Below are positions 45,780 to 53,913 of a stretch of 62,516 nucleotides of DNA, one piece after another; the first letter of the stretch is position 1; the number at the start of each line of letters is the position of its first letter. The notes beneath the pieces are model-generated. The model was given only the letters and a program-made list of their open reading frames with translations. It was not told the origin of the DNA and did not search any database. The stretch covers positions 1 to 62,516 of the forward strand of contig JAHRHE010000003.1 of NCBI GenBank assembly GCA_020027965.1. Reading direction: 5' to 3'. The position numbers were made by a program, and so were the translations under genes. The DNA is from Nitrospirota bacterium (GTDB lineage Bacteria > Nitrospirota > Nitrospiria > Nitrospirales > Nitrospiraceae).

Positions 45780-46514
45780 TTACGTCTGCTTCCCAGTCGT
45801 CAGCTTCCGATACAGGATCGGCACCAGCGCCAGCAGGCCCAGCAGCGTGAAGGCCAGGAGGACCCGCGGCGAGGCGATCTCAGCCAATGAATTGATCGTG
45901 CCGAGCTGGCGGCCCGCATAGGCGAACACAAAGCTGCCGGGAATGATCCCCAACATCGTGGCCAGCACGTAGGTGCCGAGCGTCACCCTGGTGAGGCCGG
46001 ACACCAGGTTCACCAGGAAGAAGGGAAAGAGCGGGATCAGCCGTAACGTCAGCAGGTAACTGAACGCGTTCTTGGCAAACCCCTCCTGGATCGGCCCCAG
46101 CCGGTCGCCGAATTTCTTCTCCACCCAGTCCCGCAGAAGATACCGCGCTGCCAGGAAGGCCAGTGTCGCCCCGGTCGTCGCTCCCACGTTGACGTAGAGG
46201 GTCCCGAGCAGGCTTCCGAACAGAAAGCCTCCTGCCAGTGTCATGATGGCGCCACCGGGGAGCGAAAACGCTGTCTGGAGCACATACACCCCGATATACA
46301 GGGCGACGGCTGCGCCGTAGTGCATGTCAGTGAAGGCAAGCAGGCTGTCCCGGTTGGACTTCAGCGCGTCCAACGAAAGGTACTGCTTGAGGTCAAAGTA
46401 GTAGAAGGTGCCCAGCGCCACGGCGAAGAGTACCGCGACCACGAGCTTGCCGTATGAAAAAGAAGGGCTCTCCACCGATACCGCCACGGTTTCATTCCGT
46501 TCGCTCATATTCAC
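45780..46514 (-). CDS. TVP38/TMEM64 family membrane protein
   Basis: A 244-residue membrane protein with about five helices. The family core runs from FSLPGGAIMTLAGGFLFGSLLGTLYVNVGATTGATLAF (the GG-rich motif) to RLIPLFPFFLVNLVSGLTRVTLGTYVLATMLGIIPGSFVFAYAG. TVP38/DedA-like proteins are linked to lipid scrambling or ion homeostasis. It precedes the mercuric-reductase-like gene by 63 bp on the same strand, and the two commonly co-occur. Confidence 0.9.
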   Translation of the reverse strand: MNMSERNETVAVSVESPSFSYGKLVVAVLFAVALGTFYYFDLKQYLSLDALKSNRDSLLAFTDMHYGAAVALYIGVYVLQTAFSLPGGAIMTLAGGFLFGSLLGTLYVNVGATTGATLAFLAARYLLRDWVEKKFGDRLGPIQEGFAKNAFSYLLTLRLIPLFPFFLVNLVSGLTRVTLGTYVLATMLGIIPGSFVFAYAGRQLGTINSLAEIASPRVLLAFTLLGLLALVPILYRKLTTGKQT

Positions 46515-46854
46515 CCCGCTTGTGTGTCGCCCGCACCACGAGAGTATACCGACCTCCCGCCGGCAGGGTCCACAGATAGTTCCAGAGCACTACCGTCTCA
46601 CCCCCTTAGTCCCGGCGACTGGCGGACCGTTACATGCCTCAAGGCAACCGTCATGGCAGTCCCAGACCGGTCAGCCTGCCGTGACACCCAGCTATCATCC
46701 CGGCTACGGTTCGAACGCCCGGGCCAGTTTCCAGTTCCCTCCGGTTAACCGGCGCGCTTTGCGGATTCGCACCTGGTCCTCTTCTCTTGACCCCTCCGAC
46801 TTTCTGTGTTCTTGTGCAGGCATCATGCGAGGGCGGGCAGCGGTTTTAGCCACG
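46515..46854. other. Intergenic region between TVP38 and GxDxY-repeat lipoprotein
   Basis: This divergent gap of about 340 bp should hold promoters for both flanking genes. A TATACT on the minus strand at 46543-46548 may be the -10 box of the TVP38 gene; no good -35 is seen. The plus-strand start is uncertain, since an open frame runs from 46408 through this stretch with no signs of coding before 46825. Nothing else is identified. Confidence 0.45.
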
Positions 46855-48909
46855 ATGCAGCCGGTTCCAAGGATGTCGGCGCTCCAACGCCTCGGCGCGG
46901 TGGTCCTGCTGCTCGCTCTGTTCGGATGCCGTCTTGAGACTGCTCGGCAACCTGGGGCGCAAGACCGGGACCAGGCTCCGCACGCGGCCACCTTGCCCCG
47001 ACCCACCGTGGGTCACCTCCAAGAGCAGGTCCAGCCCGATCTTGAGCGGCACGTGGCCAGAGAACAGGCTGTGGCGCTCGAAGCGCTCGCCGGCGCCAGG
47101 AGCTTTCCTGCGGGGTTCAAACGGCCGCTCATGGTGCTTGCGCTCACGGATCCCTGGCGGGGCATGCTGACGATCGAGCAGTCTGGGCATCACGTTGCCG
47201 AGTTAGTCCGGTCCGGGACGGAGCATCTACCCGCTCTCATCCAGGCGTTGGAAGAAGGGATGGACCGCCACCCGGAGGCGATCGCGCCCCTACCTACTCC
47301 AACAGGAAGCAATGCAGAAGAGCAGGTGGCCGCGCTGGTCTCCCTGCTCGGGCAGGCCCACCGGCTGCGTACCACGGCGCTCCGGAAGCTCAGCCCTCAA
47401 GATCGTCGGTTCCTGTTCGATCACGCGGCGTCCTTCGTCGAACATTTTTACCCAAATGTGTCATTAACTGAGTCGCCGAACGAGTCGGAGCTCAGTGAGC
47501 AGACACTCGCGGAAGCCGAGGCCGATCGCCGCTTTTGCGAGTTCGTGAGTGAGCGATTGGATTATGGCGCGTTGATCGCGGCGGCCCAGGTGCTGGCGCG
47601 CCTGTCCGACGACGGATGGTTGGAGCGGCTGGGCGAGAGTTTTCGTGATCGTCAGGCCCTGCCGTCGCCTCCGAACGGGGTCACCGGTGACGTGGTGCTG
47701 CTTCGCGAGACCCCGTACGGCCTGCTCGTGATCGGCGGCGAGGGGTCCAACACCTACGATCTGGATGAACGTTTTGCGCTGGTTCTGGATCTGGGCGGAA
47801 ACGACACCTACCGGGGGACCATCGCGGCGGCTGCCGGGATGGAACACGGCAACAGCGTCGTCATTGACCTGGCCGGCAACGATACCTACCAGGCTTCGCC
47901 GCTGGGCCTGGCCACCGGCCGCCTGGGCGTCGGCCTGTTGATCGACCGCGCCGGCGACGATGCGTACCACCTGTCCCAAGGTTCGGGGGGCACGGGCTTC
48001 GCCGGGCTGGGAATCTTGTACGATGGCGCAGGCAACGACCACTACGTCGGCGCCAAATTGACGCAGGGCGCCGCACTGGGCGGCCTCGGGTTATTGGTGG
48101 ACGCAGCCGGTGACGACCGCCATACGAGCTTCGGCTACGCGATCGGCTTCGGTGGACCGCTGGGCGTTGGCGCGGTGATCGATAGGGAAGGTGACGATCG
48201 CTACCAGTCCGGGGAGAAATACCCCAGCAGCTATAACGCCGGCGACGCGCCGGACGAAAAGCCCGGCGAACCACACTTTCAGTATGACAGCTTCGGGATC
48301 GGAACCGGCTCGGGCAAGCGCATCTTCACAAAGGACCCGGAGCAACAGTCGTACGGTCTGGCCGGGGGATGGGGCCTAGTCATCGATCTGGCCGGCAACG
48401 ACCGGTACCGCAGCTCCAACTTCTCCCAAGGCGCCGGCTATTTCTTCGGCGCCGGGGTCAAGCTGGATTTCGGCGGCCACGATGAGCACGCGGCCGCCCG
48501 CTTTGGCCATGCCGCCGGCGCCCACTATGGGGTGGGACTGTTCGTTGATTACGGCGGCGAGGACCGGTACAGCTCGACGGGCCCGGTCTACAACGGCGGC
48601 ACGGCCTGGGATCTCAGCGCGATGCTCTGCATCGACGCAGGACGGGACAGCGACGTCTATGATCTCCGGCGCTCGGATGGACTCGGGCGGGCCGATCATC
48701 ACTCGTGGAGCCTGTTCATCGAAGAGAACGGCAAGGACCGCTATCTGGTGCCCGAGGGCATGGGCAGGGCGACAGACGCCAGCATGAGCGGATTCTTCGA
48801 CCTGGCTGGTGAGGATACGTACGTCCTGCCGCAGCAACCCGGCATTGTCAGGCGCAGCAATGGTCAGACCGAGGTTGACGGGTCCGGCGGGCTCTTTGTA
48901 GACCGCTGA
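46855..48909 (+). CDS. Lipoprotein with GxDxY beta repeats
   Basis: A protein of about 684 residues. Starts at 46825, 46855 and 46873 are all possible; each gives a lipoprotein signal ending LLLALFGC. Residues to about 280 are helical. From about 300 there is a long array of repeats built on DLAGNDTY, DRAGDDAYH, DGAGNDHY, DAAGDDRH, DREGDDRY and DFGGHDEH, spaced about 25-30 residues and each preceded by a hydrophobic strand (VVIDLAGND, LLVDAAGDD, AVIDREGDD). The repeats look like a beta-roll or propeller-like stack with Asp/Gly turns, possibly calcium binding. I know the repeat type only from uncharacterised proteins. It is surface- or periplasm-facing. Confidence 0.78.
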   Translation: MQPVPRMSALQRLGAVVLLLALFGCRLETARQPGAQDRDQAPHAATLPRPTVGHLQEQVQPDLERHVAREQAVALEALAGARSFPAGFKRPLMVLALTDPWRGMLTIEQSGHHVAELVRSGTEHLPALIQALEEGMDRHPEAIAPLPTPTGSNAEEQVAALVSLLGQAHRLRTTALRKLSPQDRRFLFDHAASFVEHFYPNVSLTESPNESELSEQTLAEAEADRRFCEFVSERLDYGALIAAAQVLARLSDDGWLERLGESFRDRQALPSPPNGVTGDVVLLRETPYGLLVIGGEGSNTYDLDERFALVLDLGGNDTYRGTIAAAAGMEHGNSVVIDLAGNDTYQASPLGLATGRLGVGLLIDRAGDDAYHLSQGSGGTGFAGLGILYDGAGNDHYVGAKLTQGAALGGLGLLVDAAGDDRHTSFGYAIGFGGPLGVGAVIDREGDDRYQSGEKYPSSYNAGDAPDEKPGEPHFQYDSFGIGTGSGKRIFTKDPEQQSYGLAGGWGLVIDLAGNDRYRSSNFSQGAGYFFGAGVKLDFGGHDEHAAARFGHAAGAHYGVGLFVDYGGEDRYSSTGPVYNGGTAWDLSAMLCIDAGRDSDVYDLRRSDGLGRADHHSWSLFIEENGKDRYLVPEGMGRATDASMSGFFDLAGEDTYVLPQQPGIVRRSNGQTEVDGSGGLFVDR

Positions 48910-49854: not shown

Positions 49855-51459
49855 ATGAAGTTCCTGGCCGTTCATCCCAGCCCCCTCATGTACACCAAGA
49901 TCTACCTGCGGCTGGAGCCGTTAGGCCTGGAGTTGGTGGCCCAGGCGGTCCGCCGGGCCGGCCATGAAGTCCAGCTCATCGACCTGCAGGTGGAATCCCA
50001 TCAGGACTACGTCAGGATCATCGAGAGCTGGAAGCCAGACGTCGTGGCCTTCTCGTGCAATTACCTGGCCAACGTCCCGGAGATCGTGGACCTGGCGAAG
50101 GTAACCAAAGACAAGCTCCGGAACAGTTTCGTCATCGTCGGAGGACACAGCGCCTCGTTCGTCGCGCGGGAGTTTCTCCAGCATGCGGAAGGGGCCATCG
50201 ACTGCGTGCTCAAGGGCGAGGGAGAGGCAGCGCTGCCGACACTCCTGGAGGCAGTCGAGCACGATCGCTCAGCCGTGACCAGGGTCCCCGGCGTCGTCAC
50301 CGTGTGTGGAGAAGGCCCGCCGCCCGCCTTCGTCGAAAGCCTGGACGATCTGCGGCCCGCCCGAGATCTCCTCCGCCATCGGCGCAGGTATTTTATCGGC
50401 GTGCTGGATCCGTGCGCCTCCATCGAGTTCACACGGGGCTGTCCGTGGGATTGTTCCTTCTGCAGCGCCTGGACCTTCTACGGCCGAAGCTACCGCGCGG
50501 TGAGTCCCGACAAGGCCGTCGAGGACCTGGAGCGAACGAAAGAGCCCGGGATATTCATCGTGGATGACGTGGCCTTCATCCAGTCCAAGCACGGGTTCGA
50601 AATCGGCGAAGCGATCGCCAGGAAGGGAATCAAGAAACAGTACTATCTCGAGACGCGCGGCGATGTGCTCCTCCGGAACAAGGAGGTCTTCGAGTTCTGG
50701 AAAACCCTCGGCATGAGCTACATGTTCCTGGGTGTGGAGGCCATCGACGAAGCAGGGCTCAAACAGCACCGCAAGCGGATCTCCCTGGGGAAGAACTTCG
50801 AAGCCCTGGAGTACGCTCGGTCGCTGGGCGTGACTGTGGCCATCAACCTTATCGCGGATCCGGATTGGGATCAGAAGCGGTTCGAGGTCATCCGCCAGTG
50901 GTGCCTGGAAATCCCGGAGATTGTGAACATCAGCGTGAACACCCCCTATCCCGGGACCGAGACCTGGCATACGGAAGCGCGCAGGGTCCAGACCCGTGAT
51001 TACCGGCTCTATGACATCCAGCACGCCGTGCTCCCCACGAAACTGCCGCTGCACGAGTTTTATGAGGAACTGGTCAAGACCCAGCAAGTTCTGAACATGA
51101 AGCACCTGGGGTGGGCAGGGCTCAAGTCCACCGCGAAGATCGCGGTCGGGCACCTTCTCAGGGGGCAGACGAATTTTGTCAAAATGCTCTGGAAATTCAA
51201 TTCGGTATACAACCCCAAGCTCCAACTCGCCGACCATCAGCGACCGGTCAAGTACGAGATGACGCTGCCGCCGGACCATCGAGAGTCGGTCAATGCCAAC
51301 ATGCTCTACATTCACCGCGCACGAGGCCGGCAGGGTCGCGCCATCGACGACCCCACCGAGCAATTTGTCGAGGATACGCGCATGGGCGTGAGTGTGGAGC
51401 GCAGGCCGGACGGTGTCACGGGATCGGAGCATCGACTCAACACCCTGACGCCTCCCTGA
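49855..51459 (+). CDS. hpnR: Hopanoid C-3 methylase (HpnR)
   Basis: A 534-residue B12-binding radical SAM enzyme. The N-terminal cobalamin-binding part begins MKFLAVHPSPLMYTKI and has LIDLQVESHQDYVRI and VGGHSASFVAREFL. The radical SAM part has CASIEFTRGCPWDCSFCSAW near residues 186-206 (Cys triad GCPWDCSFC). The start and this Cys block match HpnR, which methylates hopanoids at C-3 to 3-methylhopanoids. A strong GGAGG precedes the ATG. No hopanoid cyclase gene is in the window, so pathway support is indirect. Confidence 0.87.
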   Translation: MKFLAVHPSPLMYTKIYLRLEPLGLELVAQAVRRAGHEVQLIDLQVESHQDYVRIIESWKPDVVAFSCNYLANVPEIVDLAKVTKDKLRNSFVIVGGHSASFVAREFLQHAEGAIDCVLKGEGEAALPTLLEAVEHDRSAVTRVPGVVTVCGEGPPPAFVESLDDLRPARDLLRHRRRYFIGVLDPCASIEFTRGCPWDCSFCSAWTFYGRSYRAVSPDKAVEDLERTKEPGIFIVDDVAFIQSKHGFEIGEAIARKGIKKQYYLETRGDVLLRNKEVFEFWKTLGMSYMFLGVEAIDEAGLKQHRKRISLGKNFEALEYARSLGVTVAINLIADPDWDQKRFEVIRQWCLEIPEIVNISVNTPYPGTETWHTEARRVQTRDYRLYDIQHAVLPTKLPLHEFYEELVKTQQVLNMKHLGWAGLKSTAKIAVGHLLRGQTNFVKMLWKFNSVYNPKLQLADHQRPVKYEMTLPPDHRESVNANMLYIHRARGRQGRAIDDPTEQFVEDTRMGVSVERRPDGVTGSEHRLNTLTPP

Positions 51460-51610
51460 TGGCTCTTGCATGCCCTGTCCCCGACAGGTACAATCGACCG
51501 GCGGTCGGGCCGGGTCCCTGCGAAATTATGGTCTGATCTCCAGGGTTCCGGGCTGAAGATCCTGCCGCTGCGCACCGGGTCTTCTGGGACCCGTGACGAG
51601 GAGGAGAAGC

Positions 51611-52483
51611 GTGGGACTGCGGTTGAAGTTCAATCTGGTCCTGCTGCTGGTCTTTGTCGTGGGCCTCTGCGGGACTGCCTACGTGTCCCATACGCTGCTC
51701 CACAGGAACGCGCGGGAGGAAGTGTTTCGGAACGCCGGTCTGATGCTCGAGACCGCCATGGCTATCCGGAAGTACACCGTGGACCAGGTCAGACCGAATC
51801 TGGAGGTGCACGCGGAGGGAGTGTTTGTGCCGCAGAGCGTCCCGGCCTATGCGGCGACCGAAACGGTGGCCGAGCTCAGGAAGACATATCCGGATTACTC
51901 CTACAAAGAGGCGACCTTAAATCCCATCAATCCCCGCAACCGTGTCACCGATTGGGAAGCCGACCTGGTTCAGGAATTTCGAAATAATCTCCAGGCCACG
52001 GAGTTGTACGGCGAGCATGACACCGCCACCGGCAGATCGCTCTTTATCGCCAGGCCCATCCAGGTGAAGACCGAAGCCTGTCTCTCCTGCCACAGCACCC
52101 CGGCGGCGGCTCCCGCCTCGATGGTCAAGCAGTACGGGGAAGTCAACGGCTACGGCTGGAAACTGAACGAAATCGTGGGGGCCCAGGTCGTGTCGGTTCC
52201 CATGTCGCTCCCGATTCGGAACGCCGACAGGGCCTTCCAGGCCTTCATGATCTCCCTGATCACCATTTTCGTCATCGTATTCCTTTTCCTGAACGTCATG
52301 CTCAGTTGGCTCATCATTCGCCCGGTCTCGACCATGTCGCAAATGGCGGAGCAGGTCAGCACGGGCAACTTCAAGATTCCGGAGTTTGATGAACGGGGCA
52401 AGGACGAGATTGCCGTGCTTGGGAATTCGTTCAACCGGATGAGACGCAGCCTCCAGAAGGCCATGAAGATGATCGAGGGCTAA
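51611..52483 (+). CDS. DUF3365-HAMP membrane haem sensor
   Basis: A 290-residue membrane protein. The GTG at 51611 has AGGAGG six bases upstream and is preferred over the GTG at 51593. A helix at residues 5-25, then the DUF3365 periplasmic domain with a c-type haem motif CLSCH near 156-160. A second helix (about 208-232) and a HAMP domain (about 232-285: IIRPVSTMSQMAEQVSTGNFK) follow. This is a haem sensor with the linker normally followed by a kinase or cyclase, but here the protein ends after HAMP. The next gene is a Ser/Thr kinase only five bases downstream. Confidence 0.92.
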   Translation: MGLRLKFNLVLLLVFVVGLCGTAYVSHTLLHRNAREEVFRNAGLMLETAMAIRKYTVDQVRPNLEVHAEGVFVPQSVPAYAATETVAELRKTYPDYSYKEATLNPINPRNRVTDWEADLVQEFRNNLQATELYGEHDTATGRSLFIARPIQVKTEACLSCHSTPAAAPASMVKQYGEVNGYGWKLNEIVGAQVVSVPMSLPIRNADRAFQAFMISLITIFVIVFLFLNVMLSWLIIRPVSTMSQMAEQVSTGNFKIPEFDERGKDEIAVLGNSFNRMRRSLQKAMKMIEG

Positions 52484-52488
52484 GGCGC

Positions 52489-53913
52489 ATGGATATGGAT
52501 CAGGCGGTCAAGACGCGAAACCCGGCCGAAGCGGCATCCGGCTCGGCAGCGACCGGCCACGGCACAGACATCAATGCGCTGCCGCTCGGACATGCCCTGC
52601 ATGAATACCGGATTGAATCCGTGCTGGGCAGCGGCGGATTCGGCGTGACCTACCTGGCGCACGATACGCATCTGAACTGGCGGGTGGCCATCAAGGAATT
52701 CTTTCCCTGCCACATCGCAGTGCGCGCCCAGGATCACTCCGTGCGGCCCCATGCCTCGACCCTGGCCGAGTCGTTTCAGTCGGGACTCCAACAATTCCTG
52801 GACGAAGCGCGCGCGCTCGCCTCGTTTCGTCATCCGAACATCGTGCGGGTGCTCCGGTTCTTTGAAATCAACAACACCGCCTACATGGTCATGGAGTACG
52901 AACAGGGCCACGCGCTGCATCAATGGGTCCGCGTCGCAGGACCACCCGATCGCCAGGCGGTCCTGACCATCGTGCGCCCGTTGCTGGACGGACTGGAGGT
53001 CGTCCACAGCGCGGGGTTCCTGCACCGCGACATCAAGCCCGGGAATATTTTCATCCGAACCGATCAGAGCCCGGTCTTGCTCGACTTCGGCTCGGCTCGC
53101 AATCTGACTACGAGAAGCGGGGACACCATTACTGCCATCGTCACCCCCGGGTATGCGCCCTTCGAGCAGTACCATTCTCACGGCCACCAGGGGCCGTGGA
53201 GCGACATCTATTCCCTGGGCGCGGTGATGTACTGGATGGTCGCCGGCCAGAAACCGGTCGAAGCGCCCGCGCGCGTCAAACAGGACATCCTGCCCCCGGC
53301 TCAGGAGATCGCGGATCACACGGTGTACGGGTCGGCGCTCCTGAAAGCGATCGACTGGGCATTGAGTCCGAGTGAGGACGAGCGCCCGCAGAGCATCGGC
53401 GCGTTCCGAGCAGCCCTGCTGGGTGAGGAACCGCGGCCCTGGCCGATGGCCACGCCTGCTCCCGTCAAGACGGTAGACCCGGACATCATGACCCGTCTGG
53501 AAAGCACCCTGGTTCAGTACGTCGGACCGCTGGCCAAGCTGATGGTCAAGAAAACCGCCCAGGAGGCGGACGACGTCAGGGACCTTTGCCGGATCTTGGC
53601 GGGGGAGATTCTGGTCGAAGAACACAAACGGGCCTTTCTCAAGGCCGTGGCCGACTTATGGCGAGCCCCCAGGGGTGAGACAGCAAGCGGCCTCGTCGGG
53701 GGAAGCGCTAAGAGGCGCGAGGTCACCCCGAGAGAGCTTGTCGAAGCGGAGAAACGCTTGGCGGAGTCTATCGGGCCGGTGGCGCACGTGTTGGTCAAGA
53801 AGGCGGCGGTTGACTGCCCCGGTCTTCGGACCCTGTACGAACGGCTCGCCGCACATATCGAAAAGCCGGACGATCGCGATCGCTTCCTCGCCAACCTCGC
53901 CGACGCCCCCTAA
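52489..53913 (+). CDS. Ser/Thr protein kinase with DUF8082-like repeats
   Basis: A 474-residue Hanks-type kinase. Motifs: GSGGFGVTY near 46 (glycine loop), VAIKEF near 69 (Lys), HRDIKPGN near 177 (catalytic Asp), LDFGSAR near 198 (DFG) and PFEQY of the activation segment. Two related C-terminal repeats of about 55 residues (about 330-385 and 415-470), each with xYVGPLAKLMVKK or SIGPVAHVLVKK and a terminal RAFLKAV or RFLANL, resemble DUF8082. No membrane segment is seen, so membrane sensing must come from the DUF3365-HAMP partner five bases upstream. Confidence 0.92.
   Translation: MDMDQAVKTRNPAEAASGSAATGHGTDINALPLGHALHEYRIESVLGSGGFGVTYLAHDTHLNWRVAIKEFFPCHIAVRAQDHSVRPHASTLAESFQSGLQQFLDEARALASFRHPNIVRVLRFFEINNTAYMVMEYEQGHALHQWVRVAGPPDRQAVLTIVRPLLDGLEVVHSAGFLHRDIKPGNIFIRTDQSPVLLDFGSARNLTTRSGDTITAIVTPGYAPFEQYHSHGHQGPWSDIYSLGAVMYWMVAGQKPVEAPARVKQDILPPAQEIADHTVYGSALLKAIDWALSPSEDERPQSIGAFRAALLGEEPRPWPMATPAPVKTVDPDIMTRLESTLVQYVGPLAKLMVKKTAQEADDVRDLCRILAGEILVEEHKRAFLKAVADLWRAPRGETASGLVGGSAKRREVTPRELVEAEKRLAESIGPVAHVLVKKAAVDCPGLRTLYERLAAHIEKPDDRDRFLANLADAP

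Follow-up and report, generated by a model that had tools for sequence, protein, structure and literature searches.

One of the described systems closest to the gene pair reported here is archaeal. In Archaeoglobus fulgidus, the gene for the STAC protein Af1502 is translationally coupled to that for Af1503, a receptor whose sole cytosolic part is a HAMP domain (PMC4834066). In bacteria, the usual setting of STAC is a tie to an SLC5 transporter. The STAC domain of CbrA contacts the SLC5 transporter (PMC13022988), and neither CbrA nor CrbS showed a growth phenotype when its STAC was deleted (PMC5715377). Because the CbrA domain touches a transporter and STAC can be removed without an effect on growth, STAC can also do other things. 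Papers up to 2026 call its role unknown or unclear, and the effector of HAMP-only receptors is unsettled in the literature consulted. For the sensor, the available part of a further source reports covalent haem c and NO binding in other sCache_heme members, including tight NO binding by a HAMP-terminal sCache_heme protein of P. azotoformans (WP_033902098; PMC12889525). The only outputs named in that part are fused ones (histidine kinase, MCP, GGDEF/EAL, cyclase); a partner of the HAMP-terminal form is not mentioned.

The pair lies in a stretch of 62,516 nucleotides from a Nitrospirota genome (GCA_020027965.1, contig JAHRHE010000003.1), hereafter the window. It combines a HAMP-terminal haem sensor with a soluble Ser/Thr kinase that ends in two STAC-like repeats.

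The Sensor

The sensor gene (51,611 to 52,483, + strand) encodes 290 residues arranged as a transmembrane segment, a periplasmic sCache_heme (Tll0287-like) domain, a second transmembrane segment and a HAMP domain, closed by a TAA stop (52,481 to 52,483). The frame is open from 51,593. We prefer the GTG at 51,611 to a start at 51,593 because a ribosome-binding site (GGAGGAG, 51,600 to 51,606, + strand) precedes the inner one. The Tll0287-like domain (51,704 to 52,201, + strand) matches PF11845, formerly DUF3365, at 138.4 bits (curated cut-off 24.1), and the HAMP domain (52,301 to 52,456, + strand) is recognized by Pfam at 47 bits. The protein has two hydrophobic segments. Residues 157-161 (52,079 to 52,093, + strand) read CLSCH, a CXXCH haem c attachment motif whose cysteines and histidine are invariant in 35 aligned sequences, and cytochrome c assembly genes are present in the window genome.

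HAMP is the sole cytosolic part of the sensor. The stop falls directly after the HAMP helix, and relatives are alike in this. In the AlphaFold2 model (pLDDT 90), the last helix, residues 266-289, is the end of the chain. Foldseek matched the model to Tll0287 (5b82, TM 0.76 by target length) and to the HAMP domain of Af1503. The motif RMRRSL (52,436 to 52,453, + strand), found by comparison of receptor ends, is a HAMP-terminal signature and predicted docking site; ten further residues after RMRRS bring the chain to its end.

The Kinase and Its Tail Repeats

The kinase gene (52,489 to 53,913, + strand) begins with an ATG five bases past the sensor stop and encodes a Hanks-type Ser/Thr kinase of 474 residues, in which no transmembrane segment was found. 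Its protein kinase domain (52,606 to 53,274, + strand; PF00069, 133.8 bits) has all catalytic motifs intact (GSGGFG, VAIKE, HRDIK and DFG, thus the catalytic Lys, HRD and DFG). The window genome also has two PP2C-type phosphatases, neither of them beside the pair.

Two tail repeats follow the kinase domain, the first at 53,473 to 53,655 and the second at 53,722 to 53,904 (both + strand). The repeat is helical and about 60 residues long. The structure model of the two copies has two bundles of four helices each, in which a GP turn joins helix 1 to helix 2. At this turn the window repeats read VGPLA (GPLA, repeat 1) and IGPVA (GPVA, repeat 2), which is the LGPx(x)A motif of STAC. A Foldseek search of the repeat model against the PDB ranked Af1502 first (prob 0.93, TM 0.64 by target, E 1.7). 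Sequence profiles of the repeat reached Af1502 in the PDB at E 0.4-0.5 in their earlier, narrower forms, and the widest profile, with Nitrospirota repeats added, placed it first at E 0.053. A profile comparison by hhalign with CbrA-type STAC gave a probability of 21%, and an HMM search with the repeat had no match to the CbrA-type STAC of three Nitrospirota SLC5-kinase proteins. Thus, the tail repeats resemble STAC, a likeness on which structure, motif and genomic setting agree; the sequence link to Af1502 is weak by itself and would not prove it. There is no transporter in the window pair, and the STAC-like setting follows the archaeal HAMP-only case instead.

An earlier note, made by a model from the letters of this DNA, had described a DUF3365-HAMP protein terminating at HAMP and, five bases 3' of it, a soluble Hanks kinase. 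Both genes were borne out, with Pfam matches to PF11845, HAMP and Pkinase. It had also called the C-terminal repeats DUF8082-like. The repeats themselves stand; the name found no confirmation and was set aside in favor of the likeness to STAC: no family in the Pfam collection used matches the repeats of the window or of representative relatives, and DUF8082 does not appear in the literature searched.

Conservation of the Pair

When genome contigs were scanned with the sensor, at least 574 relatives were found. The best 80 (52-71% identity) were analyzed, mostly from Betaproteobacteria, with others from Gamma- and Alphaproteobacteria, Myxococcaceae and one acidobacterium. Kinase, cyclase and repeat domains were mapped on all 80 loci, and Pfam confirmed the kinase and class III cyclase domains in representative partners. 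Because the loci are best hits and interrelated, the counts below cannot be taken as independent, and the Nitrospirota and plasmid sets make for better tests.

An adjacent partner on the same strand is present in 75 of the 80 best relatives. It is a Ser/Thr kinase, a class III cyclase or a fusion of the two, and it always ends in one to three copies of the repeat. Kinase plus repeats is the partner at most loci, and a kinase-cyclase plus repeats at 25; at nine it is a cyclase with one to three repeats and no accompanying kinase-repeat gene. The kinase-repeat gene stands upstream of the sensor at four loci, and at L102 and L132 a single sensor has a kinase-repeat gene on its upstream side and a cyclase-repeat gene on its downstream side. 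Among the five unpaired loci, L074 and L104 end at contig edges (the start of a kinase is visible in L104), the upstream flank is missing at L115 and L118, and L111 is a genuine exception. The constant partner of the sensor is the tail repeat, not the catalytic domain. Since the repeat is retained while the catalytic domain varies, it is the candidate for the coupling part.

No other neighbor is common to many of the 80 loci, and sensor and partner therefore behave as a unit. The two genes might still be unrelated signaling genes that share a transcript by chance or hitch-hiking, and the wider neighborhood in the window (HpnR, CoaE-like and NosD-like genes) has no evident signaling link. Their adjacency, however, is kept over several phyla, in differing surroundings and in both search directions; the survey contradicts this reading, the least probable of the explanations weighed here. 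A broken fusion was rejected as well: relatives keep two separate genes at varied spacing, with the same sensor end. In a mirror-tree comparison, sensor and repeat distances correlate (0.48-0.56), and HAMP does no better than the Cache domain. The correlation is thus present without being specific to HAMP, and a HAMP-specific tie was not retained on this measure.

Several features of individual loci are worth recording. The kinase-cyclase fusions that precede repeats are at L061-L064, L066-L069, L072, L075, L077-L080, L082-L084, L090-L093, L099, L103, L105 and L107. The kinase-cyclase of L075 has NTKEG in place of DTGDG and seems to have lost the second metal site of the cyclase. A small secreted protein is encoded just upstream of the sensor at L060, L065, L102, L111, L117, L119, L132, L134 and L135, mostly in the group with cyclase partners; most copies contain an RFWPTWP-like motif.

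Origin and Genomic Surroundings

The closest sensor among the best 80 relatives is that of L060, from Betaproteobacteria SG8_41, with 71% identity, whereas proteins of the window's own order reach about 27-31% at best. Because the betaproteobacterial copy is so much closer, the window sensor was probably acquired. The partner of the L060 sensor is a cyclase, and the window kinase is nearest to that of L106 (51% over 460 residues), from the same SG8_41 assembly. Outputs may have been swapped between sensors. SG8_41 has two sensor copies, L060 with a cyclase and L106 with a kinase, and the window pair has its closest sensor in the first and its closest kinase in the second.

The gene immediately before the sensor, in the same orientation, encodes the hopanoid C-3 methylase HpnR (49,855 to 51,459; 924 bits). 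Further upstream, an 833-residue frame (46,408 to 48,909) contains many GLGxLxDxxGxDxY-type repeats and has no Pfam match at E 0.1.

Searches From the Repeat

The pairing was also approached from the repeat. A search of 72,556 plasmids with the tandem repeat of L075 gave six matches, and these are exactly the six proteobacterial plasmids that carry a full-length sensor. On each of them, the gene that follows the sensor encodes the repeat kinase. Plasmid pP880101 carries a cyanobacterial sensor relative without a STAC-bearing partner.

In 296 Nitrospirota genomes, the repeat profile found 13 small repeat proteins besides the window and one orphan kinase; three borderline matches (L154, L156 and L157, E 0.005-0.01) were excluded as likely chance. 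The 13 proteins have about 160-270 residues, mostly about 190. Those that were scanned and matched anything have a DUF4388-like front, well above the cut-off only in L144. Twelve of the 13 abut a receptor that ends 0-10 residues after HAMP; for the thirteenth, a HAMP-terminal receptor lies about 3.5 kb away. The paired receptors carry dCache_3, dCache_1, sCache or Tll0287 sensors and are mostly not haem proteins. Since several types of Cache sensor occur in them, the pairing is not about haem. As a control, 29 loci whose Tll0287 proteins or similar receptors are fused to other outputs or lack HAMP were examined, and none has a repeat. The Nitrospirota pairs of receptor and DUF4388-like/STAC protein (L142-L153, L155 and L194) are often near response regulators.

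The earlier note had taken the output of the HAMP domain to be a separate kinase, and the partners with tail repeats in the 80 relatives and on the six plasmids support this. It had named, as the pattern that would speak against the pair, each gene alone in unrelated contexts; what we found is pairing in 75/80 relatives and on six of six proteobacterial plasmids. The Rosetta-stone fusion that it looked to did not turn up, in that no fused HAMP-kinase polypeptide was seen, nor was any polypeptide fusing HAMP to the repeat found in the survey. It had missed the repeat as the constant partner, the cyclase alternative and the receptors with non-haem Cache domains.

Sensor and kinase could also belong to one pathway that is wired otherwise, with the repeats serving oligomerization, membrane attachment or autoinhibition and a third protein coupling the two. 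Tandem helical repeats are often scaffolds, and the number of repeats varies from 1 to 3. In CbrA, moreover, STAC docks to the transporter, not to HAMP (PMC13022988). Such wiring does not sit well with a repeat that accompanies HAMP-terminal receptors whether it belongs to a kinase, a cyclase or a DUF4388-like protein, and that decays where no sensor is nearby. Further, Af1502 is a lone STAC domain coupled to a HAMP-only receptor, and no additional gene is conserved around the pair. We consider this alternative unlikely. The decay is seen in genus g19 of the same family, where the 12-18 kb covered around kinases 53-55% identical to the window kinase contain no HAMP receptor; in these kinases GE/GQ replaces the GP motif and the second repeat has been lost. 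Sensor-less kinases of 53-55% identity with decayed or missing repeats are those of L034, L035, L036, L192, L193 and L195.

A Branch Near Type VI Secretion Genes

A further reading takes the pair as a threonine-phosphorylation system of the PpkA/PppA type, in which sensor and kinase would control T6SS firing. On plasmids of Skermanella, Caballeronia and Paraburkholderia, the pair lies among T6SS genes or next to them, in some cases together with a PP2C phosphatase, and T6SS genes accompany it at L123 and L129 too. Yet most relatives have no T6SS gene within 10 kb, and a VipB/TssC search found no TssC sheath gene in the window genome, which is 97% complete. T6SS control was therefore rejected as the function of the window copy, for which we hold it to be very improbable; it can be true of one branch. 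The genomic setting of that branch suggests a haem-controlled T6SS phosphorylation switch. The pairs located within type VI secretion clusters or adjoining them are those of L053, L055, L056, L058, L198, L123 and L129, often with a FecR-like secreted protein upstream and sometimes with a PP2C phosphatase.

The Receptor End

The final HAMP helix carries the signature R[ML][RK]x[ST][LMIV] in 76 of the 77 HAMP-terminal receptors of the sensor family. The same signature, with the core R[ML][RK]x[ST], is present in all 12 Nitrospirota receptors, a set that was found through the repeat alone. In HAMP domains leading into fused outputs, part of them from the window genome, it was found in 0 of 28 (Fisher p 1.8e-10 for the Nitrospirota set against fused HAMPs, relatedness ignored). 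Af1503 also carries the R[ML][RK]x[ST][LMIV] end (IERLRRSLKVAM). The RMRxS helix is thus predicted, from sequence, to be the natural candidate docking site.

Proposed Mechanism and Implications

We think it likely that the pair is a split transmembrane receptor, in which the HAMP end docks the STAC-like repeats of the kinase and NO or redox is the likely signal. The membrane subunit, presumably a dimer, would hold covalent haem c in its periplasmic Cache domain, where the haem would sense nitric oxide or its own redox state. From the Cache domain, the change would pass along the transmembrane helices into HAMP, the last part of the chain. The kinase would be recruited through its C-terminal pair of STAC-like four-helix domains, which would bind the HAMP end around the RMRRSL helix, and a change in HAMP would reposition the kinase domains and so switch autophosphorylation and Ser/Thr phosphorylation of targets. 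Computation supports the two genes with their domains, their conserved pairing, the constancy of the repeat under exchange of the catalytic domain, the HAMP-end signature and the likeness of the repeat to Af1502. In this we infer the direct HAMP-STAC contact, the direction of regulation, the NO or redox signal and the substrates, as well as haem-to-Ser/Thr signaling itself. NO binding comes from another protein, and the window sensor could sense redox or another ligand.

Extended beyond the window, the same reading would make HAMP-terminal receptors a widespread split-receptor class instead of truncated curiosities, in which any Cache sensor with an RMRxS end signals to a separate STAC effector, be it a Ser/Thr kinase, a class III cyclase, a kinase-cyclase or a DUF4388-like protein. 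STAC would then generally dock receptor ends, and the haem members would be periplasmic NO/redox switches for Ser/Thr phosphorylation and cyclic nucleotides. We lean toward this wider proposal, with less assurance than for the window pair.

The survey ties STAC and HAMP-only receptors together in bacteria, and it names a signature for the receptor end and a domain that is a candidate for docking to it. For the HAMP-terminal sCache_heme protein whose NO binding was described in 2026, it offers a candidate output, and it suggests a candidate route from periplasmic haem to Ser/Thr phosphorylation. Because kinase and cyclase give catalytic read-outs, sensor and output could be kept in separate tubes for studies of HAMP signaling.

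Comparison With Known Systems

The window kinase is like the Hanks-type kinase PknB in its intact catalytic motifs. PknB senses through its own transmembrane PASTA part, whereas the window kinase is soluble and has STAC-like repeats. The T6SS threonine-phosphorylation pathway (PpkA, PppA and Fha1) is similar in leading from a membrane signal to a Thr kinase, and PP2C and T6SS genes are beside some relatives of the pair; PpkA, however, is itself a membrane kinase. In the SLC5-STAC histidine kinases CbrA and CrbS (PMC13022988, PMC5715377), STAC is located between the membrane sensor part and the kinase output, as here. They differ in being one polypeptide with a transporter as sensor, a histidine kinase and one STAC, and in having no HAMP-terminal receptor. 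No report of STAC-bearing kinase or cyclase pairs with a HAMP-terminal receptor was found in the literature searched.

The P. azotoformans protein, as far as the available part of its source describes it (PMC12889525), is built like the window sensor, with a transmembrane segment, a Cache domain with CXXCH, a second transmembrane segment, HAMP and no fused output in about 300 residues. The Af1503/Af1502 system is like the window pair in that the receptor ends at HAMP and a STAC-type four-helix domain comes from the next gene. Af1502 has the (I/L)GPxxA motif between helices 1 and 2, as do the window repeats, and the HAMP end of Af1503 (RLRRSLKVAM) is close to that of the window sensor (RMRRSLQKAM). 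Unlike Af1503, the window sensor is predicted to carry haem c, and where Af1502 consists of STAC only, without a catalytic output, the window pair has two STAC-like domains fused to a kinase.
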